In this document: positions 21,159-33,965 of the stretch, one piece after another
Layout: each line of letters begins with the position of its first letter
Position numbering within the stretch: position 1 is the stretch's first letter
From: Cyanobacteria bacterium M5B4
Lineage (GTDB): Bacteria; Cyanobacteriota; Cyanobacteriia; Pseudanabaenales; Pseudanabaenaceae
NCBI GenBank assembly: GCA_002861535.1
Contig: PHFO01000006.1
Coordinates: 1 to 38,076, forward strand
Direction of reading: 5' to 3'
DNA: 38,076 nt
Program-made: the position numbers and the translations under genes
The notes under the pieces: generated by a model
Told to the model about the DNA's origin: nothing
Database searches by the model: none
Seen by the model: only the letters and a program-made list of their open reading frames with translations

Positions 21159-21587
21159 TTAGTCGTACCGGCGATCGATCGCCCACTCTTCTTGTTCTCC
21201 CCCTACATAGACTGCTACGATCGGCACATATTCTTCACTAAAACGATAGAGGGCGTTGATCAGGACATCGAGGGCAATACCATCGGTAGTACCCAAGTCC
21301 ACCCAGCACCTCGCCCATTTGCCTTCGTACTCTACATCGCCGATGTTGTGCATTACTGCCATCATGTCCGTTGCCATGGCATCATTGTCGTAGTCTAAGT
21401 GACTGACATCTACTCCTGCTTCTAAAACCTGGGAATTGACGGCATTAAATCCTCCCAACTTGCCCAATAAAAACCAGGAAGCAAATACTTCATCGAGCAT
21501 TTGTTTCTCTCGTTCACTGATAAATTCCTCAAACTCCAGCCAAATCCAGAGGTTAAACCAATCGCATTCCCGAAATTTTACTTCCAT
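21159..21587 (-). CDS. DUF3531 family protein
   Basis: The 142-residue acidic protein resembles the DUF3531 family shared by cyanobacteria and plastids. The start MEVKFRECDWFNLWIWLEF and the later WFLLGKLGGFNA and GKWARCWVDLGTTD are typical. The function is not known. Its ATG overlaps the stop of the preceding small gene by 1 base (TAATG), so it is translated with the small gene and the aminotransferase upstream. Confidence 0.82.
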   Translation of the reverse strand: MEVKFRECDWFNLWIWLEFEEFISEREKQMLDEVFASWFLLGKLGGFNAVNSQVLEAGVDVSHLDYDNDAMATDMMAVMHNIGDVEYEGKWARCWVDLGTTDGIALDVLINALYRFSEEYVPIVAVYVGGEQEEWAIDRRYD

Positions 21588-21811
21588 TAGTCTTCTTCCT
21601 CCTCGCTGATTTTACTCAAAGCACAGGACTGAGCAGCGGTCATGAGGCGCTCAAACTCGATCGGGGAGAGTTGGGCTAGGGTCTTGCCGGCGAGGTCGGG
21701 GCAGAGCATCGCCACCATATCGGCATCGGAGAAGACTTGCTCCGCTCCCATCATGTTGCCCAACCAGACTAAATCGGGGTCATTTGCCATGGATTGCTTG
21801 AATTGCGGCAT
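21587..21811 (-). CDS. Small protein between aminotransferase and DUF3531 genes, function unknown
   Basis: The 74-residue frame from ATG 21811 (or 67 residues from ATG 21790) contains MANDPDLVWLGNMMG, FSDADMVAML and ELSPIEF-like helices, with an acidic tail EEEED. It overlaps the 3' end of the aminotransferase gene and its stop overlaps the DUF3531 start by 1 base, which supports real translation. A longer frame up to 21973 is only the shadow of the aminotransferase. No family recognised. Confidence 0.6.
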   Translation of the reverse strand: MPQFKQSMANDPDLVWLGNMMGAEQVFSDADMVAMLCPDLAGKTLAQLSPIEFERLMTAAQSCALSKISEEEED

Positions 21812-22930
21812 TGATACCCGCCCCTGGGGTAAAGTCATACTCCAGGAGTTGTAAAGTGGCTTCCAGGGCACCGATCGCGGTGAGAATATCCCGATCGTTG
21901 ACATAGCCCAGGTGCCCGATGCGGAAGATTTTGCCCGATAGATGATCCTGCCCGCCGGCGAGGGCAATGTCAAACTTTTTCTTCATAGTCGAGCGGATTT
22001 TTTCCGCATCTACGTTGAGGGGAGCGACGGCAGTAATGGCGGGGCTGGCGCAATCATCCTTAGTTAACAGGGGTAGCCCCAGGGCTTTGACGGCATTTCT
22101 TGTAGCACGGCGATGCCGATCGTGGCGGGCAAAAATATGCTCTAAACCCTCGGCTTGCATCATGGTCAAACTTTCCCGCAAAGCCATGATCATATTGACG
22201 GAAGAAGTAAAGGGAGTAGTATTCTTCTGGGCATCTTTGCGGGCTTTGCCCAAATCGAGGTAGTAACGGGGTAAATCTGCGGTTTTGTAAGCCTCCCAGG
22301 CGCGGGCAGAAACGGCGACAAAGCCCAATCCGGGCGGGATCATGTAAGCCTTTTGGGAGCCGGAACCCACTACATCTAAATCCCACTCATCGATGGGGAT
22401 ATTAGTTGCCCCCAAACTGGTGACCGCATCGACAATAATTAGGCTTTGCCGTGGGCTTTGACATGGCGGTTGATTGTCTCCAGATCGTTGAGGACACCGG
22501 TAGAAGTTTCGCTGTGGGTGATAATCACCGCTTTAATGTTCTTGTCTGTGTCTGCCTCTAGTTTGGCGCGGAATACTTCAGGATCGAGGGTTTCTCCCCA
22601 TTCTGTCTTGATCCGTTCGGCGTTGATGCCGTAGGCATCGCAAATATCTGCCCAGCGCTGACCAAATTTGCCATTTTCTCCCACTAAAACCCGATCGCCC
22701 TTGCTTAAAAAGTTGATGATGGCAGCTTCCATTGCTCCCGTGCCACTTGCAGTCAAAATTAGCACGTCATTTTGGGTCTGGTGGAGCCATTTTAATTTTT
22801 CAGTAACTTCGGCAAAAATCTGGCTAAACTCACCGCTACGATGCCCGATCGGGTGTTTTGCCAGGGCTAGCAACGATCGTTCTGGTACGGGAGTAGGACC
22901 AGGGATCATCAGCATCAATTTATCTTCCAT
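21780..22930 (-). CDS. Class V alanine/serine-glyoxylate aminotransferase (frameshift at 22442)
   Basis: This PLP enzyme is expected to transaminate glyoxylate to glycine with alanine or serine as donor, part of photorespiration. The first frame starts MEDKLMLMIPGPTPVPERSL and runs through SGTGAMEAAI to VKAHGKA, where it stops at 22439-22441. The second continues as LIIVDAVTSLGATNIPID with the PLP lysine in SGSQKAYMIPPG (Lys194 in the repaired protein). One missing C in GCC(C)TAATT restores a normal 383-residue protein. The gene is a likely operon with the 74-residue and DUF3531 genes downstream. The 5' neighbour is the divergent UPF0489 gene. Confidence 0.9.
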
Positions 22931-23031: not shown

Positions 23032-23904
23032 ATGATTCCCTATTGGATTATAGAAGAGCATCACGAGGCGTTTTACGTTTGGCATCGGGCAATAAAAAGT
23101 AAGATAATTCCGCCGCGGGGTAATTTATTATTGCATATCGATGAACACAGCGATCTGGGTGTTCCCCTCTTAACTACTGACCTCAATTCCTTAAAACTAG
23201 ACCTCGATCGAATTCGGAACTTCGTCTATCAAGAATTGAGCATTATTAACTTTATTTATCCCGCTTTTTATTTGGGGATATTCGATCGTTTTTATTGGTT
23301 AAGACAAAACCACGATCGGGATATAAAGCCCCGTAAATTGTTTGTCTCTAGCCACAATAAAGAGGGTAAAACCCTCAAAGTTACCTCCCAGGGCAAGGTA
23401 ATTGATTGGTGGCAAACCGATCGGAAATGTATCCAATTTTATCCCGTCACTGCCCAACAAACTAACTTAAACTTAAAGCCGCCATTAGTTTTAGATATAG
23501 ACCTAGACTATTTTTCCTGCGATAACTCTCTAGGGTCTTATTTTGAGGTCGAAATTACTGCCGATGCCTACTACAATCTCAGGGACAATTATTACCACAA
23601 AGCTAGACTAAACTTAGGCAATGAATTAAAAATTGTGGCAAAAGAAGATAAATATTTCCTCTGTACGGAAATCACTGATTATGAACCAAATCTCAAAGTC
23701 AGTACAACAGAAATTACCGATCGGATTGACCAACTAGGACAATTTTTGCAAAACAATCAAATTAAACCAGCAATGATTACGATTTGCCGTTCTCGCCTTA
23801 GTAATTACACCCCCGCAGATCAATGGCAATTTATAGAAGAAAAACTGACCGATCGGTTAAATTCCCTCTACACGATGCAGTTAATCGATGCTCCTAGCAA
23901 TTAA
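23032..23904 (+). CDS. UPF0489 family protein with arginase-like metal motifs
   Basis: The 290-residue protein has H35-x-D37-x-H39-x-D41 (LLLHIDEHSDLG) and D155-x-D157-x-D159 (LDIDLDYFSC). These two clusters have the same form as the binuclear Mn2+ site of arginase-fold ureohydrolases. The UPF0489 family is related to that fold. One cyanobacterial member, OspR, is a peptide arginase that converts Arg to ornithine in a ribosomal peptide; that is known from the literature, not from this sequence. No RiPP precursor, radical SAM or protease gene lies next to it here, so its substrate is unknown. It is divergent from the aminotransferase. It contains four CGATCGG-type motifs and is not compositionally foreign. 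Confidence 0.8.
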   Translation: MIPYWIIEEHHEAFYVWHRAIKSKIIPPRGNLLLHIDEHSDLGVPLLTTDLNSLKLDLDRIRNFVYQELSIINFIYPAFYLGIFDRFYWLRQNHDRDIKPRKLFVSSHNKEGKTLKVTSQGKVIDWWQTDRKCIQFYPVTAQQTNLNLKPPLVLDIDLDYFSCDNSLGSYFEVEITADAYYNLRDNYYHKARLNLGNELKIVAKEDKYFLCTEITDYEPNLKVSTTEITDRIDQLGQFLQNNQIKPAMITICRSRLSNYTPADQWQFIEEKLTDRLNSLYTMQLIDAPSN

Positions 23905-24044: not shown

Positions 24045-24527
24045 TTAGGAGGGTTTAATCAAGTTTTGCTGTTGGATTACTGATTGCCACTCGACAATTA
24101 CGGCGGCGGGAACTAACACCTGAATATCACCTTCTTGGAGAGGGAGTGTCAAAATTAGTCGTTGATCTTTAGGTATTTCTTTGATTACAGGCAACAGGTT
24201 AAATTGACCTACATTTGTGACTGTTTCACCCTTGGGAAAATCATCTTGCGCTTCAAATTTTGCCCCTGAAATTGTCTCCAATACTAAAGGGTCTGGATGC
24301 CGAAAATGATACCGATCGGGGAAACAAACTAACCGCAACTGCAGTTCCTGCTGCCGAGCAAACAAAATGACCTGCCACACCGATCGTTGATTATCTTTTA
24401 GTTGGTGGCGGGATTGGATTAATATTTGATCGGGAGCTTCTTGGGTAGTTCGTACCATAGCATAGCCAGGATCAGGAGTTCCTAACCAAAGCAAAAGACA
24501 GAATAAAAATAATAAGAGAGGTTTCAT
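24045..24527 (-). CDS. DUF3122 family secreted protein
   Basis: The 160-residue protein has a signal peptide (MKPLLLFLFCLLLWLGTPDP, then GYA) and a mature beta-rich domain with WQVILFARQQELQLRLVCFP, LETISGAKFEAQDDF and IKEIPKDQRLILTLPL, which resembles the cyanobacterial DUF3122 family. The function is unknown, but the cell location is outside the cytoplasmic membrane. It is the last gene of the sulfide-type operon and overlaps the radical SAM gene by 4 bp. Confidence 0.8.
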   Translation of the reverse strand: MKPLLLFLFCLLLWLGTPDPGYAMVRTTQEAPDQILIQSRHQLKDNQRSVWQVILFARQQELQLRLVCFPDRYHFRHPDPLVLETISGAKFEAQDDFPKGETVTNVGQFNLLPVIKEIPKDQRLILTLPLQEGDIQVLVPAAVIVEWQSVIQQQNLIKPS

Positions 24528-25306
24528 TGCTCATGTACCATAACAAAACTAACAGCAAGACCAGATTGATCTCTGATTTCTTGGGCAAAGGCTTCTAGAT
24601 AATCCATTTCTAGGGGCTTAAACCAATTGGCTTCCTTGCTTTCAGTAAGATTCTCTCTACCCTGCAATAGTCTTAACTTAGGCTTAGGGCGGCAGGGGAT
24701 ATTGAGGTAAACCCGATCGGGTCTGATTTGATTTAACCCATTGATGTAAGCCTGTCGTTCGTTATGATTCCATCGGGAAAGTAACATTGTTTGAATAGTC
24801 ATTCTGCCTCTAAACAAATGGCGCAAGTGGAAGAAACTGTCGGCAAATTGCTCCCAATTCCACCTAAAGTTAGGACGATTGACACGATCGACCCGATCGG
24901 TGGTAATACCATCTAATTTGACAGACACTTCATCGGCAAGAAGTAAGTCCGATTGGACGCTAGCTAAACCTAAAAGACTACCGTTTGTCAAAACAATAAC
25001 AGGAGTTTTAGTTATCTGTTTGACACTTCTGATAATTTCCCCTAGATTAATAGCCAGGGTAGGCTCTCCACTACCACTAATGGTAATGACATCGAACTTT
25101 TCTGTGCTTTTTTGTTTGACTAAATCGACAATCTCTGCCGTTGACACAAAGTTCTGACGATCTAAAGACGATCGTTCAATCTTACCTAACTGACAATAAA
25201 CACAGTTAAATGAACAAGTGGAAACCATACCGATCGGGTCAATGCCGAGGGAGTTACCGTAGCGCCAGGATTTAACTGGTCCATACACTGGAAGAAAGTT
25301 TTTCAT
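24524..25306 (-). CDS. Radical SAM protein (COG0731-like)
   Basis: The cluster motif C31-x3-C35-x2-C38 lies in STCSFNCVYCQLGKIE, with GSGEPTLAI as the SAM-binding GGE-like loop and VSVKLDGITTDRVDRVNRP further on. The family is related to TYW1-type radical SAM enzymes; the substrate of the short 260-residue bacterial members is not known. The gene overlaps both neighbours by 4 bp, so it is translated as part of the sulfide:quinone oxidoreductase operon. Confidence 0.88.
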   Translation of the reverse strand: MKNFLPVYGPVKSWRYGNSLGIDPIGMVSTCSFNCVYCQLGKIERSSLDRQNFVSTAEIVDLVKQKSTEKFDVITISGSGEPTLAINLGEIIRSVKQITKTPVIVLTNGSLLGLASVQSDLLLADEVSVKLDGITTDRVDRVNRPNFRWNWEQFADSFFHLRHLFRGRMTIQTMLLSRWNHNERQAYINGLNQIRPDRVYLNIPCRPKPKLRLLQGRENLTESKEANWFKPLEMDYLEAFAQEIRDQSGLAVSFVMVHEQ

Positions 25307-25881
25307 TTTTCTGTCAGAGCCTTTTGTAACTCAGGTATAATGAGGCTATACATACCTCGTAAATCACCCACACGGAAATCATAGGCGAGGTCTTCAGGAT
25401 ACTTACTCTTGACAAAAGAAGGTCTATCTTCTTTTACCCCATGACAAGCTAAACAACTAGCTTCCACATTGATGCGGCGAAAATAACGCACTCCTTGCTC
25501 ATCTTGTTGCCAAAAACCTTGTAAGTCGGGATGTTCCCTAAACTCAGCTAACGCTGTTTCTTCGGTCAGATTTTGGGGTTTATGCAGAGGATTGCGATAT
25601 TTGTCAGATACTTGGCGCAATTGCCAGCCATTTTCTTGGGCGATTTGCTGAGCTTGCTTGCCCACAGGAGCACAAACTGCCTTGAAAGTACCGATCGTTG
25701 GTTCTTCAGTCATGCCCTCTAAAGTGGAAGCTAAGCCAGAACGCATTTGGTCTAACCTTTCGATCTCGATCACTGCCTTACCTAGTTGGTCTGGATCGAC
25801 ACTGGCAAAAGATGGCAGAGCAAAACCGATCGTTAGACATAAAACAAGTCCTAAAGTCCATAAAGTAATTAGTCTTCGCAT
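25303..25881 (-). CDS. Tll0287-like (DUF3365) periplasmic heme c protein
   Basis: The 192-residue protein starts with a signal peptide (about residues 1-26, ending ALPSFA). The mature part is a PAS-like DUF3365 domain with one heme c attachment site, C143-x-x-C146-H147 (SCLACHGVK). Cys70 is a candidate for the second heme ligand. Proteins of this type, such as Tll0287, are suspected redox or gas sensors or electron carriers in the lumen or periplasm. Here it is co-transcribed with sqr and arsR (13-bp overlap with arsR, 4-bp with the radical SAM gene), which suggests a role in sulfide or redox response. Confidence 0.87.
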   Translation of the reverse strand: MRRLITLWTLGLVLCLTIGFALPSFASVDPDQLGKAVIEIERLDQMRSGLASTLEGMTEEPTIGTFKAVCAPVGKQAQQIAQENGWQLRQVSDKYRNPLHKPQNLTEETALAEFREHPDLQGFWQQDEQGVRYFRRINVEASCLACHGVKEDRPSFVKSKYPEDLAYDFRVGDLRGMYSLIIPELQKALTEK

Positions 25882-26213
25882 GATGAAATTTCCTCCCTAG
25901 AAGTATTAATATTAGATAGCTCAATCAAGGACTGAGCACACAAGCCTAGATATTTGGGGTCGGCGAGAAAATAAATCCGACTATTCCCCTCCTTACGACA
26001 GGCAACAATGCCCCCCATTCTTAACATCTGTAAGTGCTTGGAGACATTTGCCTGACTTAATCCCGTCATTTCACAAATTTGTCCTACACTACATTCTGCC
26101 TGACAAATGCACCACAAAATGTGTAACCGACTTGGATCGCTCATCAGTTTGAATAACTCTGACAAACGATCGAAATCAGGCGGATTCATGGCTTTAATGA
26201 TTGTAAGTGGCAT
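25869..26213 (-). CDS. ArsR/SmtB family transcriptional repressor
   Basis: The 114-residue winged-helix protein has MSDPSRLHILWCICQAECSV as helix 2-3, LSQANVSKHLQML as recognition helix and EGNSRIYFLAD as wing. Cysteines at 35, 37, 41, 47, 72, 92 and 112 are candidates for thiol or metalloid sensing; C41 is near the position of the sensing Cys in ArsR/SqrR proteins. ArsR-type repressors control sulfide or arsenite operons and are inactivated by the inducer. Starting at ATG 26213 gives the family length; an open frame to 26480 is only read-through of sqr antisense. The sqr stop is 5 bp upstream, so sqr and arsR are one transcript and likely self-regulated. Confidence 0.9.
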   Translation of the reverse strand: MPLTIIKAMNPPDFDRLSELFKLMSDPSRLHILWCICQAECSVGQICEMTGLSQANVSKHLQMLRMGGIVACRKEGNSRIYFLADPKYLGLCAQSLIELSNINTSREEISSCED

Positions 26214-26217
26214 AAAT

Positions 26218-27504
26218 TTACACGTTAATGATTTGACGGACATCTTCTGGTACAGGACGAGATAAAGATAGCCCGAATAATAATTGTAGTCCCAATCTTT
26301 CAAACCAGGGTAAGCCCAAACCAAAGCGCATTTTGACCATAAAATAGTGCTCAAAGGATGCCTTTGCCCAGTTGACCCATACCCCCCGCGCTGCATAGGA
26401 ATAGCGCCGTTTACCAGTTTTAGGATCGGGAATGATCGGCGCAGCAATGTAGGCAATGCCTGTTTCCCCGTATTCTGCAAAACAAAGAGCTTCCAAGGTG
26501 GGTACTTCTAAGGGGCGTTTGAGCACTCCCAAGTCTACAGCAATATTGTGGGCGGCTACCATTGCCATTGCTTCCGTCATTTGTCCGCTTTTGGGCAGAC
26601 CGATCGGGACTGGGGTTTTATCGGGTTGGTCTAACTGTACACTTACCCCCACACCATAAATCTCAGGATATTTCTCGTGGCGCAGTGTTGGTAATACTGG
26701 TAAAAAGCCCTTGGCATTGCCTAAACCGGACACGCGGACAAATTCTGCTCCCCTAAATGATGCCAAAACCATGGTATAGGCTTGCTTAAACGATCGTCCA
26801 TCGGCAAGATAAACCCGATCGGGGGTAATTTCTTTGATTTCGGCATTAGTTATAGTGCTAATGTGGCGCTCCTGCATTAAACCTTCTGTTAGCTGTCGCG
26901 CCTGGTGAACTTGGGCAATCCCCAGATGACCAATGTAGGGTTCCGGTGTGATGTAGGTGATCTGAACCCGATCGCGGATGCCCCTCCGACGCAGATCAGC
27001 CTCTGCCGACAACACAAATTCGTAGGCAGGACCAAAACAACCCGCCCCTGGGGCAGCCCCCACTAGCAAATCCCCAGGATGGGCGCAAAACTCTTCCCAG
27101 GCATCCTTAGCCGCTAAGGCGTGGACAGGAGTACAAACCGAATGGCTATACACTCCTAGCCCAGGCACTAAATCATTGGCTAACTCTGACCCGCTGGCAA
27201 TAATGAGATAGTCGTAGGCTAAATCCCGATCGGCTGTATATATGCACTTCTTCAGCGGATCAATCCTTTCTACTTTCCCTTGTACCCATTCCAATTTGTG
27301 CCTCCGCGCTAACTGCCCCAGGTCTAACTGCACTCGATCGAGGGGGACATGCCCCAATGCTACATGGACTAACCCCGGAATAAAGGTAAATTGGGAAAAT
27401 TCCGATACTAAAGTTACCTGGTGCTCTTGCCCCAGGTAATGCCGCAACTCATAGGCAGCGGGTAAACCGCCCAGTCCTGCCCCAATCACAACTACTCTCG
27501 CCAT
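26218..27504 (-). CDS. sqr: Sulfide:quinone oxidoreductase-like flavoprotein
   Basis: SQR oxidises sulfide at the membrane and passes electrons to quinone. The 428-residue protein has the FAD motif VVVIGAGLGGLPAAYEL and the later FAD region PEIYGVGVSVQL. Three cysteines, C124 (SVCTPVHA), C156 (PGAGCFGP) and C341 (LCFAEYGETG), are at the places used for sulfide oxidation and thiol exchange in SQRs. C-terminal amphipathic helices (LPWFERLGLQLLFGLSLSRP) could bind the membrane. A GAGG ribosome site precedes ATG 27504. It leads the five-gene operon sqr-arsR-DUF3365-radical SAM-DUF3122 and is divergent from DUF302-chrA. The type within the SQR family is not assigned. Confidence 0.88.
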   Translation of the reverse strand: MARVVVIGAGLGGLPAAYELRHYLGQEHQVTLVSEFSQFTFIPGLVHVALGHVPLDRVQLDLGQLARRHKLEWVQGKVERIDPLKKCIYTADRDLAYDYLIIASGSELANDLVPGLGVYSHSVCTPVHALAAKDAWEEFCAHPGDLLVGAAPGAGCFGPAYEFVLSAEADLRRRGIRDRVQITYITPEPYIGHLGIAQVHQARQLTEGLMQERHISTITNAEIKEITPDRVYLADGRSFKQAYTMVLASFRGAEFVRVSGLGNAKGFLPVLPTLRHEKYPEIYGVGVSVQLDQPDKTPVPIGLPKSGQMTEAMAMVAAHNIAVDLGVLKRPLEVPTLEALCFAEYGETGIAYIAAPIIPDPKTGKRRYSYAARGVWVNWAKASFEHYFMVKMRFGLGLPWFERLGLQLLFGLSLSRPVPEDVRQIINV

Positions 27505-27528
27505 TGTTAACCTCGTTAAAAAATAATA

Positions 27529-27570
27529 TTGACTTATGTAACTATATAGTTATATGTTTAGTATACTAAA
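27529..27570 (+). promoter_or_regulatory. Divergent promoter region with two perfect 14-bp palindromes
   Basis: TAACTATATAGTTA (27539-27552) and TTTAGTATACTAAA (27557-27570) are perfect palindromes between sqr and the DUF302 gene. TTGACT at 27529-27534 with TATGTT at 27553-27558 is a possible -35/-10 pair reading rightwards, and the first palindrome sits in its spacer. They are good candidates for operators of the ArsR repressor encoded in the operon. Confidence 0.55.
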
Positions 27571-27617
27571 TATCAAGCTTAACGGGCAAATTTTAATTAA
27601 AAGTCTAGGAGTTAAGG

Positions 27618-28001
27618 ATGTACTACTTTAGCAAGACCATCCCAGTAGATTTCGATCGTGCTGTGGATTTGGTAAAAGATGCCCTCAAGCAGGAGGGTAT
27701 GGGCGTAATGACGGAGATGGATTTACAAAGTGCCTTCAAACACAAACTCGATCGAGATTTCCGCCGTTATCGAGTTTTAGGGGCCTGCCATCCCCAAGTA
27801 GCCTTTGACATTTTGCAGATCGATGACAAAGCCGCCGTCATGTTTCCCTGCAATGTGATAGTCCAGGAGCGGGAAGCAGGAGAGGTAGAGGTTTCTGCCG
27901 TTGATCCCTTAGCCATGTTTTTGATGGTGCATTCTCCCAAGGCGAAGGAGATTGCTCTTTATGCCAGTACCATGATGCAGCGTGTCATCAATCATCTTTA
28001 A
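27618..28001 (+). CDS. DUF302 domain protein
   Basis: The 127-residue cytoplasmic protein matches DUF302: FSKTIPVDFDRAVDLVKDAL, MTEMDLQSAFKHKL, YRVLGACHPQVAFDILQ and MFPCNVIVQE. Two cysteines (in GACHPQ and FPCNV) are typical. The molecular function is unknown, but DUF302 genes are often found near sulfur or sulfide oxidation genes. TAGGAG precedes the ATG at 27618. It is the first gene of the rightward unit, with chrA starting 34 bp after its stop. Confidence 0.88.
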   Translation: MYYFSKTIPVDFDRAVDLVKDALKQEGMGVMTEMDLQSAFKHKLDRDFRRYRVLGACHPQVAFDILQIDDKAAVMFPCNVIVQEREAGEVEVSAVDPLAMFLMVHSPKAKEIALYASTMMQRVINHL

Positions 28002-28035
28002 GTTAATTATTTTGAGAAGTAAGGAAGGTAGAAAT

Positions 28036-29273
28036 ATGGAAGAGGTAGAAGTTTTAGAGTCATCGGTAGAAGCAAAGATACCGGACTTAACTGAGATGAC
28101 ATGGTTGTTTTTGAAGTTAGGCTCGATCGGGTTTGGGGGCGGTATTGCCATGATTGCCCTGATAGAAGACGAGTTTGTCAAACGGCGCAGTTGTTTAGAA
28201 ACGGAGGAGTTTTTACATGGGGTTGCCCTCAGTCAGATACTTGGTTCTTTTCCTGTAAATACTGCTCTCTTTGTTGGCTATCGTCTACATGGTTTTCTAG
28301 GGGGGCTTTTGAGTAGTATGGTCTTCCTTTTTCCTTCTTTTTTGCTGTCATTGTTTTATCTTGGCTTTATTTTAGTTTTAATACCATTCCCTCTTTACAG
28401 GGAGTTTTATCGGGTTTAGCTCCTGTAGTAATTGCCATCATTTTAACGGCGGCGTGGTCGATGGGGCAAAAAGCGATCGGTTCCTATGTAGCCTTAGGTC
28501 TAGCGATCGGGGGCTGCATTGCTACTTTAACCAAGGTCAATCCCGTTTTAATTTTGAGTGTAGGTGGCATTGTTGGGTTGCTATTAAAACTTACTCCCAG
28601 AAAACCCCAACCGAAAAAGACGACAGAGCAGTCCCAAGCCGCGATCGGTTTGCCTTTAGCCATGGAAGTTTTACCCCACGAGATAGCACAACTAGCTGAT
28701 AAAACCTCTGCTCCAGCAACAATTAGTTTAGTCAGTCTAGGTCTTACCTTTCTCAAAGTTGGATTTGTCTTTTTTGGCGGTGGTTTTGTGCTGATTCCCA
28801 TTCTTAAACAGTTGTTAATAGATAACTTGCACTGGCTAACTCAGCAGGAGTTTATTGATGGGGTAGCAATTAGTCAATTAACACCAGGTCCGATCGCGGT
28901 GATTTCTACCTTTGCTGGTTTTAGGGTAGCGGGTCTGACGGGTGCAGTAATTGCGACGATCGGTTTATTTTTACCCTCGATCGTGTTGATGTTTATCTTG
29001 GCAAATTATTATCAGAAAGTCCGTCACTTGCAACCAGTTAAGCATTTTTTATCGGGGGTCAATCCCACAGTTGTAGGGATGATTGTCTCGGCAGCAATTA
29101 ACTTAGCTCCTTCTATCCTGCCGATCGATCAGCCCATCAGAATAGGAATAAATCTAGCTTTATTGGCCATAGGTTTGTTAGTAATTGTTAAACTAAAATG
29201 GCATCCCGCGATCGGTTTGGCGATCGGGGCGATTACAGGGGTTATTATTGGTTTTATACCGGGATTGAATTAG
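28036..29273 (+). CDS. chrA: ChrA-type chromate/anion transporter (frameshift near 28335-28356)
   Basis: Two CHR repeats make the usual long-chain CHR transporter. The N-terminal half starts at ATG 28036 (ribosome site AGGAAGG) with EMTWLFLKLGSIGFGGGIAM and FLHGVALSQILGSFPVNT. The C-terminal half has the matching FGGGFVLIPIL and QEFIDGVAISQLTPGPIAVI. The frame changes by one missing base in the T-rich stretch around 28335-28356; the second frame resumes as SWLYFSFNTIPSLQG and runs through LSGLAPVV to TAG 29273, giving about 412 residues after repair. In Synechocystis the sulfide operon suoRSCT also contains a CHR transporter; here it lies opposite sqr. Confidence 0.87.
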
Positions 29274-29277
29274 CAGT

Positions 29278-29771
29278 ATGAATCAATTACAAACATGGGG
29301 TTTTCGTAGAGATTGGTGGCGCAACCAACGGGGTGAGTTTTGGGTGATCGGACAAACAATTCTGAGTATTGCTTTTATTCTTACTCCGGTCATCCGAATT
29401 TATACCATACCAATGATGATCAGACTGGGAGGAACGATCGGTTTGGGGCAATTGCCCTTGGGTTAGGTTTAGGCGGTCTGCTGCATTTAGGGGACAATCT
29501 GACACCTCTGCCTCATCCCAAAGATGAAAGTAGCTTAGTTACAGTTGGTGTTTATCGTTTTGTGCGCCATCCCATCTACAGTAGTGTGATCTTTTTGACC
29601 TTAGCCTATGCCACGTGGCAGATGAGTATTTCCCACACGATCGGGGTCTTCATCTTTTTGTTGTTTTTCGATCAAAAAGCAAGACAAGAAGAACAGTGGT
29701 TAACCGCTAAGTTTCCCGAATATGAAGACTACAAACGATCGGTAAAGAAGATTTTACCCGGCATTTATTGA
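29278..29771 (+). CDS. Isoprenylcysteine carboxyl methyltransferase-like membrane protein (frameshift at 29445-29448)
   Basis: After repair this is a 164-residue membrane protein of the ICMT/phospholipid methyltransferase family. The first frame (MNQLQTWGFRRDWW) covers the first helix; the second frame resumes with GAIALGLGLGGLLH. It continues with the family signature YRFVRHPIYSSVI and the C-terminal EEQWLTAKFPEYEDYKRSV. One G is probably missing from the GGGG run at 29445-29448. The ATG is 5 bp after the chrA stop, so it is the third gene of the DUF302-chrA unit. The substrate is unknown; it probably methylates a lipid or a thiol. Confidence 0.82.
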
Positions 29772-30445: not shown

Positions 30446-31484
30446 GTGAACCATAACTGGACTAGAAGGACAGTTTTAGCAGGATTAGGGGCTTGGGGAG
30501 CCAGCTACTTTTCGCCATCAGTGGCGCAGGGACAGGTAATCAACCTCTATTCTGCTCGCCACTACGACACCGACAATGCCATTTACACCAATTTCACCAA
30601 AGCTACGGGGATCAGGGTCAATCTAGTTGAAGCCAAGGCAGAAGAACTGATCGCCCGCATTAAAGCGGAGGGAGCCAATAGTCCCGCCGATCTAATTGTG
30701 ACGGTTGATGCTGGCAACCTATATCGCGCCCAGCAGGAAGGAATTTTACGCCCCACCCAATCGGAGATTTTGACTAGGGTAATTCCGGCTAACTTGCGCG
30801 ACCCCCAGGGGCACTGGTACGGCTTAACGAAGCGGGCGCGGGTGATTGTATATAACAGAGATAAAGTCAGACCCCAAGAATTATCTACCTACGAAGACCT
30901 TGCCAATCCCAAATGGAAGGGGCGGTTAATTGTGCGTAGTTCTAGCAGTATTTACAATCAATCCCTCATGGGTTCGATTATTGTTGCTAATGGCCGGGAA
31001 AAAGCCGAAGCCTGGGCACGGGGACTTAGTTGCCAATTTCGCCCGCCCTCCCCAAGGTAATGACACTGCCCATATTCAGGATGTTGCCGCCGGAGTAGGG
31101 GACTTGACCCTAGTAAATACCTACTATGTGGCAAGGTTGCTGAAGTCGAAAAAGGCTGCCGATCGAGAAGTAGTGGAAAAGGTAGGGGTATTCTTTCCTA
31201 ATCAAAACGATCGGGGTACTCATGTCAACATTAGCGGGGCGGGTGTCGCCAAAAATGCGCCCAATGGGGCAAATGCTCTTAAATTTATTGAATATTTAGT
31301 TTCTAGGGAAGCCCAGGATATTTTTGCCCGCAGTAACAACGAATATCCTGTTGTGACCGGCACAGCGATCGATTCGATCGTGCGGGGGTTTGGAGCTTTC
31401 AAGGAAGATAAAGTCAATGCCGCCGAATATGCCCGCCTCAATGGCGAAGCCGTGAGGATTATGGATAGAGCGGGCTGGAAGTAA
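30446..31484 (+). CDS. futA: Iron(III) ABC transporter substrate-binding protein, FutA-like (frameshift near 31024-31028)
   Basis: The protein binds ferric iron for an ABC importer. It has a Tat signal peptide (TRRTVLAGLGAWGASYF), the opening INLYSARHYDTDNAIY, and the Tyr-rich iron site including VNTYYVARLL. The first frame ends at 31060; a one-base insertion in GGGACTTAGTTGCC near 31024-31028 explains the change. The second frame resumes with VANFARPPQGNDTAHIQDV and runs to DRAGWK at 31484. The repaired length is 345 residues. GTG 30446 with AGGAG at 30433 is the start. No permease (futB) or ATPase (futC) gene is adjacent. A 95-bp duplicate of its 3' end lies at 32679-32773. Confidence 0.9.
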
Positions 31485-31679: not shown

Positions 31680-32573
31680 TCAAGCAAGGATTAACCGACA
31701 GCCGATCAATCGAGATATTTCTTGACCCAGGCTGTTAATTATTTCTTGATTTAGTCCTGCGCTAACTAAAATTTTGTTTTGTTTATTTCCCGATCGGTAA
31801 CGAATCTCTAAAGAGTACAATTTATTCCCATCATTGTCAGTGTTTTCGCCATCAATATCAGTACTTTCTACTACTGCAATTTCTACTACCGGAACCTCAC
31901 TTTCTACTATTGCAATCTCATCGACATTACTAAAACTTATCGTTTTATAGTAGAAAGGCAAACCAATACGTTTTTCTGTAATTTGTCTGATGTTAGCATT
32001 GATGTCAATGACCTCGTAAAAAACAGATGAAGAAACTATAGGAATACCCAACAACACGAGCATCGCCGAGAAAAGAACAAACCCAATTTCTGTACCTATT
32101 ACACCTATTTCACGACTACTTGAAACTGATAGTGTTTCCTCCTGAGAGTTAAGAAAATTACTGATTTGACCTACTGCCCATTGAGCATAGTAGCCACTAT
32201 ATCTAACCTTGTTATCACCTGATGCTTGCTTAAAAATGATGTAATGAGATGTATATGTAACTTCGTTTCCTTTTCTATTTGTAGTGGTCTCTGTTTCTTG
32301 AAAATACTGTATATCCTTGATGCCTGTATAGCTTTCTACAGTGGTAGGGAAAAGTCTAATTTTAGGTGTTTGAGTAAATTCACAATCAGCTATCTTTAGC
32401 TCTACTTTTTTACAAGAAATGTTCAAAGTGTTTAACTGACCGAGAGTAGCTACTATCATAAGCAACCCTGATATGATAAAAGATAAACCAAAAACAGCCC
32501 CAATTCCAACTATAAACCACGGAAGAGATTCAAGTAATATTATTTGTCCAGGTTTACGTACAATGTTTGCCAT
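31680..32573 (-). CDS. Two-TM membrane protein, function unknown
   Basis: The 297-residue protein has a strong helix pair near the N-terminus (about 15-44, LPWFIVGIGAVFGLSFIISG and beyond), an extracytoplasmic domain with TNRKGNEVTYTSHYIIFKQ, a second membrane region (about 158-185) and a C-terminal cytoplasmic domain with YSLEIRYRSGNKQNKILVS. No family recognised. The gene is AT-rich and has a single CGATCG near its 3' end, and none for the next 850 bp, whereas neighbours have several per kb. It lies between a dispersed repeat and the duplicated futA fragment, so it may be an acquired gene. Confidence 0.65.
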   Translation of the reverse strand: MANIVRKPGQIILLESLPWFIVGIGAVFGLSFIISGLLMIVATLGQLNTLNISCKKVELKIADCEFTQTPKIRLFPTTVESYTGIKDIQYFQETETTTNRKGNEVTYTSHYIIFKQASGDNKVRYSGYYAQWAVGQISNFLNSQEETLSVSSSREIGVIGTEIGFVLFSAMLVLLGIPIVSSSVFYEVIDINANIRQITEKRIGLPFYYKTISFSNVDEIAIVESEVPVVEIAVVESTDIDGENTDNDGNKLYSLEIRYRSGNKQNKILVSAGLNQEIINSLGQEISRLIGCRLILA

Positions 32574-32678
32574 GGGTTTATGTGCAACGCTAACTTCATA
32601 TTAACTAGTTAATGAAAACTTCATGTTAACTTGGGATTAAGCTTTATTTAATTAAAAGTTAATTAAATAACTATGATC

Positions 32679-32773
32679 TCGATCGTGCGGGGGGTTGGAG
32701 CTTTCAAGGAAGATAAAGTCAATGCTGCCGAATATGCCCGCCTCAATGGCGAAGCCGTGAGGATTATGGATAG
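32679..32773 (+). pseudogene. Duplicated 3' fragment of futA (direct repeat of 31374-31468)
   Basis: The 95 bp match 31374-31468 with two differences that I can see (GGGGGTTT versus GGGGGGTT, and AATGCCG versus AATGCTG). Only the last part of futA is present; similarity stops at GGATAG on the right and at TCGATCG on the left. It is a non-functional fragment that, with the original, makes a direct repeat flanking about 1.2 kb. Confidence 0.85.
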
Positions 32774-32836
32774 TAAATCCCCTGTTTATTCTGGATGCTC
32801 CAAGGTACAATTGTCTCTGGTTTCTTAAAGGCTTTT

Positions 32837-33259
32837 ATGACTATTCCCTTTCCTCCAGAACAAGTGGTGCTGACAGGTATTGCCATTGCCGCTATTTTGA
32901 TCTATGTGCCTTTTTTTGTTGTCGGTGCGGCTCGTCTCAATGCCAAGGTCGATCTTGGCAATCCCCGATCGGAGCAAGATAAGTTGCCCCCCTATGCCCA
33001 AAGAGCGAGTGCAGCCCATCAGAATTCCTTTGAGGTTTTTATGCTCTTTGCTGCTGCTGCCATCATGGTCTATGTGACGGGTCAGGCATCCAACTATACT
33101 TCGATCGTCACGATCGTTTTTTTGCTGGCGCGTCTACTCCATTCGGTGTTTTATATCAGTAATGTGCTACCTTTGCGGGGACTGATGTGGGCAACAAGTA
33201 TAGGTTGTGTTGCCGCTTTAATGGGTACAGCTTTGCAGGCAGTTAAGACTCTGTCATAA
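32837..33259 (+). CDS. MAPEG family membrane protein
   Basis: The 140-residue protein (ATG 32837, preceded by AAAGG) has four predicted helices and family features such as RASAAHQNSFEVFMLFAAA and LARLLHSVFYISNVLPLRG. MAPEG proteins include glutathione-dependent membrane enzymes; the substrate of this bacterial member is unknown. An ATG at 32795 would add 14 residues and is less likely. It ends 17 bp inside the convergent creatininase-family gene. Confidence 0.88.
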   Translation: MTIPFPPEQVVLTGIAIAAILIYVPFFVVGAARLNAKVDLGNPRSEQDKLPPYAQRASAAHQNSFEVFMLFAAAAIMVYVTGQASNYTSIVTIVFLLARLLHSVFYISNVLPLRGLMWATSIGCVAALMGTALQAVKTLS

Positions 33260-33965
33260 AGCGTTGGTATTGTTCCCCGATCTCGGTGACAGCTACTTCA
33301 AAGAACTTTTTGCCATGTTCTACAGTGGCGAGGGAGGGGTCAGAACCCATGCGTCCGTCGGGATAGCGGGCGCGAAAATCCTGGGGGCTATAAATTTTCA
33401 TGGTGGAACTGCTGAGGGGGGCGAGTTCTGCCTGTTTGATCGCTTCGGGGTAGGCATACATAGTCAGGGCAACTTCGCTGGGGGTGGCATGGAACCCCTC
33501 CCGATCGCCGTAGAGTTCCCGCGCTAATTTGGATACTTCTTGCCCCACCCACCAGTTGGCAATTTGGCAGCGTACCTGGGGCAGTTCGCTATAGATTTCG
33601 CAGAACGCCGATCGCATAATATTGATGTTGCCGCCGTGACCGTTAATAAAGAAGAAACGTTCAAAACCATATCGCGCTAGGCTGTGGATATAATCCCGCA
33701 AAACTAGCATTAGGGTGGAAGGGCGCAGGCTAATGGTGCCAGGAAAAGCGGTGTGATGCTCTGCCATACCGATCGTTAAAGTAGAACTGACCATCACATC
33801 TCTGGTTTGGCTAATGCCTTTAGCGATCGTTTCCGCACAGATAAAGTCCGTGCCAATTAGACCCGTAGGTCCATGTTGTTCGGTGGAACCGATCGGGATG
33901 ATGATGCCCCGCGATCGTTGCAGGTAGGCTTCCACCTCAAGCCAAGTAGAGAGATAAAGTAGCAT
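33243..33965 (-). CDS. Creatininase-family amidohydrolase
   Basis: The 240-residue protein has the family signature GSTEQHGPTGLIGTD, the metal region FFFINGHGGNINIM, and GFHATPSEVALTMYA. Members are Zn/Mn amidohydrolases that act on creatinine or on formamides of flavin-related precursors. The substrate here cannot be set from sequence; a general cyanobacterial role is not established. The ATG at 33965 starts at the usual place. It is convergent with the MAPEG gene. Confidence 0.88.
   Translation of the reverse strand: MLLYLSTWLEVEAYLQRSRGIIIPIGSTEQHGPTGLIGTDFICAETIAKGISQTRDVMVSSTLTIGMAEHHTAFPGTISLRPSTLMLVLRDYIHSLARYGFERFFFINGHGGNINIMRSAFCEIYSELPQVRCQIANWWVGQEVSKLARELYGDREGFHATPSEVALTMYAYPEAIKQAELAPLSSSTMKIYSPQDFRARYPDGRMGSDPSLATVEHGKKFFEVAVTEIGEQYQRFMTES

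Follow-up and report, generated by a model that had tools for sequence, protein, structure and literature searches.

Sulfide:quinone oxidoreductase (SQR) lets cyanobacteria tolerate sulfide or perform anoxygenic photosynthesis, and the partners of the enzyme are poorly known. The closest described system is the suo locus on plasmid pSYSM of Synechocystis, where the annotated gene order is chrA-DUF302 divergent from SQR-ArsR-DUF3365-DUF3122. SuoR is reported to bind the shared promoter and SuoS to be an SQR (PMC4307280). Repression by SuoR and SQR activity are likewise published for Synechocystis, and the CHR transporter SuoT has been tied to arsenite transport or import (PMC4307280, PMC5061849). 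Arsenic-related sqr clusters in Gloeomargaritales MAGs also combine a Type I sqr with adjoining arsR and chrA genes; the authors set these clusters beside the Synechocystis cluster, and put forward horizontal transfer for cyanobacterial sqr (PMC11304991). Finally, the crystallized cytochrome Tll0287 (PDB 5b82) belongs to the sCache_heme family, and a stand-alone Tll0287 relative from Pseudomonas putida has stable Cys/His ligation and properties interpreted as those of an electron-transfer or redox-sensing protein (PMC12889525); the PCC 7002 homolog listed for the Synechocystis heme protein sll5034 was labeled in a thylakoid-lumen proximity proteome (PMC7880944).

The window analyzed here is the whole 38,076-nucleotide stretch of contig PHFO01000006.1 of Cyanobacteria bacterium M5B4. 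A preliminary description had placed eight genes in two divergent units around one short gap, and a Pfam profile search confirmed each family at its place (locus 24045-29771, with a gap of 113 bp at 27505-27617): DUF3122, Radical_SAM, Tll0287-like (PF11845, formerly DUF3365), ArsR HTH_5, Pyr_redox_2, DUF302, two Chromate_transp pieces, and ICMT (Table 1), the Pyr_redox_2 protein being identified as an SQR by its PDB matches. Successive genes on the leftward strand overlap by 4 bp (24524-24527), 4 bp (25303-25306), and 13 bp (25869-25881), and the SQR stop and ArsR start are 4 bp apart. These overlaps are present as first described and are consistent with translational coupling, but they fall short of proving the joint translation that had been read from them, and the pSYSM junctions are gaps (about 111 bp for arsR-DUF3365, about 39 bp for DUF3365-DUF3122). 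Rfam and tRNA scans of the whole window gave no matches; the flanks (23032-23904 and 31680-33965) encode a UPF0489 protein, an unassigned protein of 297 aa, a MAPEG protein, and a member of the creatininase family, with no obvious sulfide gene among them.

Table 1. Features of the divergent locus in window coordinates, and pairs of an ICMT-like relative with a different SQR-like gene in two other genomes.
Feature	Coordinates	Strand	Remarks
DUF3122 protein	24045..24527	-	160 aa; N-terminal hydrophobic segment, signal-peptide-like; PF11320 E 2e-39
Radical SAM protein	24524..25306	-	260 aa; CxxxCxxC motif (CSFNCVYC); PF04055 E 1e-14
Tll0287-like (DUF3365, sCache_heme) predicted exported heme c protein	25303..25881	-	PF11845 E 7e-31; PDB 5b82 E 3e-70
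ArsR/SmtB-family repressor, SuoR ortholog	25869..26213	-	start 26213; PF01022 E 1e-11; NF033788 above cut-off
Type I-like SQR, SuoS ortholog	26218..27504	-	428 aa; PDB 3hyv SQR E 2e-81
Palindrome 1, TAACTATATAGTTA	27539..27552	.	candidate SuoR operator
Palindrome 2, TTTAGTATACTAAA	27557..27570	.	possible second operator; not conserved
DUF302 protein, SuoC ortholog	27618..28001	+	PF03625 E 8e-21
chrA, CHR transporter, SuoT ortholog	28036..29273	+	PF02417 on both pieces; frameshifted in assembly
ICMT-like integral-membrane methyltransferase	29278..29771	+	PF04140 E 2e-8 on second piece; frameshifted in assembly
ICMT-like relative and different SQR-like gene	L213:6816-8509 and L212:5717-7407		G023 and G040

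A comparison of the window locus with pSYSM reveals extensive agreement. Specifically, i) in both, SQR is followed by ArsR, and this pair is divergent from DUF302 and ChrA; ii) window SQR is 72% identical to SuoS, and in the SQR tree the two form one clade (support 95/83) with the SQRs of a congener (G001) and of a genome of family f17 (G050), this clade then joining G134 and Thermosynechococcus-type genomes with support 100/99; iii) heme (DUF3365) and DUF3122 genes lie downstream of arsR in both; and iv) the divergent gaps have a similar, operator-like palindrome in common. On gene order and SQR phylogeny, we conclude that the window locus is a genuine and conserved ortholog of the pSYSM suo locus, in keeping with the assignment first made. 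An SQR clade that spans several families, with a plasmid copy among its members, would also fit horizontal transfer.

The two loci differ in that only the window has a radical SAM gene, which separates the heme gene from DUF3122, and an ICMT-like gene, which comes next after chrA, whereas an ARMT1-like gene lies downstream in pSYSM and is missing from the window; moreover, the pSYSM locus is plasmid-borne, which need not hold for the window locus. All four accessory genes had initially been taken for an undescribed extension of the suo set. This holds for the radical SAM and ICMT-like genes insofar as pSYSM lacks them, but not for the heme c and DUF3122 genes, which are already present in the Synechocystis locus and in dozens of cyanobacteria. 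The Gloeomargaritales clusters are reported to include ArsA and ArsB, neither found at the window locus, and the discussion in that paper does not extend to heme, DUF3122, radical SAM, or ICMT genes (PMC11304991). A plasmid-borne SQR of Picosynechococcus PCC 7002 was considered as a further suo-type locus and rejected, having no suo neighbors.

The conserved neighborhood that the preliminary description had proposed to look for is present among cyanobacterial genomes. A class-wide search of 390 genomes yielded 107 with this SQR and 91 with the heme gene; when 89 of the latter are tallied (two partial hits were omitted), 74 genomes carry both genes, 15 have the heme gene alone, 33 have SQR alone, and 268 have neither, for an odds ratio of 40 (Fisher p 3e-38, genomes being treated as unrelated). 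Among 93 heme genes, 50 have SQR no more than 3 kb away. At 72 inspected SQR loci, partly picked for high SQR similarity so that the fractions are not those of a random sample, the genes found within 5 kb were ArsR (42), DUF3122 (42), the heme gene (32), DUF302 (21), ChrA (6), radical SAM (5), and ICMT (5). The heme gene is on the SQR strand at 32/32 inspected loci, DUF302 is divergent from SQR at all 21 loci that carry it, and the eight-family set is far from a chance grouping. We conclude that the Tll0287-like heme protein is a regular operon partner of SQR across these approximately 390 genomes; it is not obligatory to the SQR locus, because 15 genomes have it without this SQR and many SQR loci do without it.

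Inspection of SQR neighborhoods by eye found rhodanese, Rieske, SCP-2-like, RND-efflux, and psbA-like genes recurring near SQR, as well as an ACR3/arsenite-efflux-like transporter near SQR at L033, L034, L035, and some 15 other loci where ChrA is missing. In another genome (G057, L192), a DUF3122-radical SAM pair is accompanied by neither this SQR nor the heme gene and may be a remnant of the locus.

The window heme protein scores above the PF11845 cut-off and resembles Tll0287 and the sCache_heme family (PMC12889525) in its CxxCH motif, conserved Cys, export signal, and stand-alone architecture; both CxxCH and an upstream cysteine (C70) are invariant in 12 relatives, the cysteine matching in position the one expected for Cys/His heme ligation. 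One inspected locus (L116) encodes a heme protein almost identical to crystallized Tll0287, and such genomes have the order SQR-Tll0287-DUF3122 and no adjoining ArsR. Where we depart from the published accounts of the family is in suggesting a redox or sensing role in sulfide oxidation. Our literature search had incomplete coverage, so that we claim no priority; it found nothing on a link between SQR, Tll0287, and DUF3122, nothing on DUF3122, and nothing on DUF3365 together with sulfide and cyanobacteria, and a search of PDB with a DUF3122 model gave no significant fold match. We tentatively suggest that SQR, the Tll0287-like protein, and DUF3122 could form a dedicated and widespread cyanobacterial sulfide-oxidation module, in which Tll0287, located toward the lumen or periplasm, might act on the sulfur product or electrons of SQR; further sulfur-handling enzymes might then be the radical SAM protein and the ICMT-like protein.

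A rather unlikely alternative is that all four accessory genes (heme, DUF3122, radical SAM, and ICMT) have no part in sulfide oxidation and hitch-hike in an island devoted to low oxygen or stress. The rhodanese, Rieske, psbA, and SCP-2-like genes that recur near SQR would suit such an island, as would ICMT relatives near psbA, heme oxygenase, and Rieske genes (assigned by eye), but the heme and DUF3122 genes are repeatedly adjacent to SQR in constant order and orientation across many families. The radical SAM and ICMT genes, mostly located elsewhere, are a different matter, and for these two hitch-hiking and a sulfur role seem about equally likely. Radical SAM is an occasional member of the locus: among 63 genomes with the gene, 7 have it no more than 5 kb from SQR, the window and the congener G001 included. 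The protein reached no NCBIfam equivalog cut-off and gave no PDB match by sequence.

In the window, in G001 and G050, and on one G134 contig, the gene immediately after ChrA is the ICMT-like one. A relative stands immediately after a different SQR-like gene, approximately 30% identical to window SQR, in both G040 and G023 (Table 1), and these pairs are a second tie between ICMT-like methyltransferases and sulfide-type flavoproteins; a third genome, G033, has a relative about 3 kb from a different SQR-like gene, and other relatives are placed elsewhere in their genomes. The protein resembles both MddA thiol S-methyltransferase and protein-S-isoprenylcysteine O-methyltransferase in belonging to the integral-membrane methyltransferase superfamily and in weak profile matches, but differs from both in being shorter and far under either curated cut-off. 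Identification as MddA was rejected at 26.6 bits (window piece) and 22.1 bits (intact G050 ortholog) against a cut-off of 270 bits for NF045656. Since MddA is a membrane enzyme that methylates H2S and MeSH (PMC12904073), a role in S-methylation of sulfide or thiols is attractive and plausible, but a score so far under the MddA cut-off makes it only a lead.

The divergent gap contains two perfect 14-bp palindromes, TAACTATATAGTTA and TTTAGTATACTAAA; when the gap sequence is dinucleotide-shuffled, two or more palindromes of this kind arise in 0.08% of the shuffles. In a weak consensus scan, palindrome 1 is flanked by the hexamers of a promoter-like site that points rightward, and a leftward promoter-like site has its second hexamer covered by palindrome 2. 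Perfect palindromes, absent in most relatives, were rejected as a conserved feature; what is conserved is an approximate operator: the 16-mer ATAACTATATAGTTAT occurs upstream of SQR with at most 2 mismatches at 20/77 loci, compared with 0/1540 mononucleotide-shuffled sequences, and with at most 3 mismatches at 28/77 compared with 3/1540, the 77 loci being related and hence not wholly independent. Palindrome 1 is a candidate SuoR operator. No other site with 2 or fewer mismatches to ATAACTATATAGTTAT was found in the organism's own genome, and this single good match would fit a regulon confined to the suo locus; a wider regulon was considered and rejected, 3 or fewer mismatches giving 10 sites per strand and the reversed-pattern control 11. 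In Thermosynechococcus-type genomes (L115-L120), SQR-Tll0287-DUF3122 has no adjoining ArsR, yet a degenerate operator-like site is kept about 43 bp upstream of SQR, and a repressor encoded elsewhere may therefore control the operon.

Taken together, we think it quite probable that this is a suo-type, ArsR-controlled locus that detoxifies sulfide and reduces plastoquinone, with an exported heme protein and DUF3122 as accessories. An ArsR dimer (SuoR) bound to the palindromic operator would repress both units, until sulfide, its oxidized products such as polysulfide, or arsenite modified conserved SuoR cysteines. One cysteine is common to 34/34 ArsR proteins adjoining SQR and three others are found in 32, 30, and 29 of the 34, and these residues are candidates for thiol-based sensing; a BigR-type sulfur sensor was rejected as an identity for the protein (NF040642, 40.7 bits against a curated cut-off of 155 bits). 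SQR (SuoS) would then oxidize sulfide to zero-valent sulfur and pass the electrons to plastoquinone. It has the FAD fold and the three redox/catalytic cysteines of a Type I SQR: C124, C156, and C341 are invariant in 8 relatives and align with cysteines of the solved Aquifex enzyme (PDB 3hyv). DUF302 (SuoC) and the CHR transporter (SuoT) would serve a linked arsenite or sulfur-anion branch, while the Tll0287-like protein and DUF3122 would assist SQR on the lumen or periplasm side, most likely by handling the sulfur product or sensing its redox state; the radical SAM and ICMT-like proteins would be lineage-specific additions. Export of the product, also proposed in the preliminary description, drew support from no test, and published work connects the CHR transporter with the transport or import of arsenite (PMC4307280, PMC5061849).

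The locus might instead serve arsenic primarily, with ArsR sensing arsenite, the CHR protein moving it, SQR taking part in arsenite oxidation or feeding plastoquinone, and sulfide secondary. Arsenite transport and the light-dependent oxidation of arsenite have both been linked to the Synechocystis genes (PMC4307280, PMC5061849), and an ACR3-like transporter is found at the DUF302 side of some related loci (assigned by eye). We nonetheless consider this improbable: SQR retains the three cysteines of sulfide oxidases, ChrA is near SQR at just 6/72 loci, and SQR-heme-DUF3122 persists without ChrA, including in Thermosynechococcus-type genomes that have neither ChrA nor ArsR.

As assembled, chrA is divided between two ORFs in different frames (27982-28419 and 28461-29273), and so is the ICMT-like gene (29278-29466 and 29340-29771), by 1-nt frameshifts at short homopolymers (about 28338-28343 and 29442-29448, respectively). 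The intact G050 ChrA ortholog, with two CHR domains, scores 242.5 bits as a CHR chromate efflux transporter (TIGR00937, cut-off 171.7 bits), and the second window piece alone reaches 141.1 bits because of the frameshift. Both genes are unbroken in G001 and G050, as is chrA in pSYSM. A class-V aminotransferase (21587-22930) and an iron-type periplasmic binding protein (30446-31484) are also split across frames, which suggests that frameshift errors are assembly-wide in this 389-contig genome; since other window genes are split likewise, the chrA and ICMT-like breaks are probably sequencing or assembly errors rather than decay of the locus. It is correspondingly doubtful that the rightward unit is decaying and that the two genes are true pseudogenes in this organism: both do carry a frameshift in this assembly, but the changes are single nucleotides at homopolymers, two unrelated genes are affected in the same way, and the congener has both genes intact.

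We regard the linkage of SQR, Tll0287, and DUF3122 as the most useful by-product of the analysis. The candidate SuoR operator can now be sought across cyanobacteria, and the strong linkage opens the function of the crystallized orphan cytochrome Tll0287 to testing: the comparison gives both Tll0287 and DUF3122 a testable assignment to sulfide oxidation.
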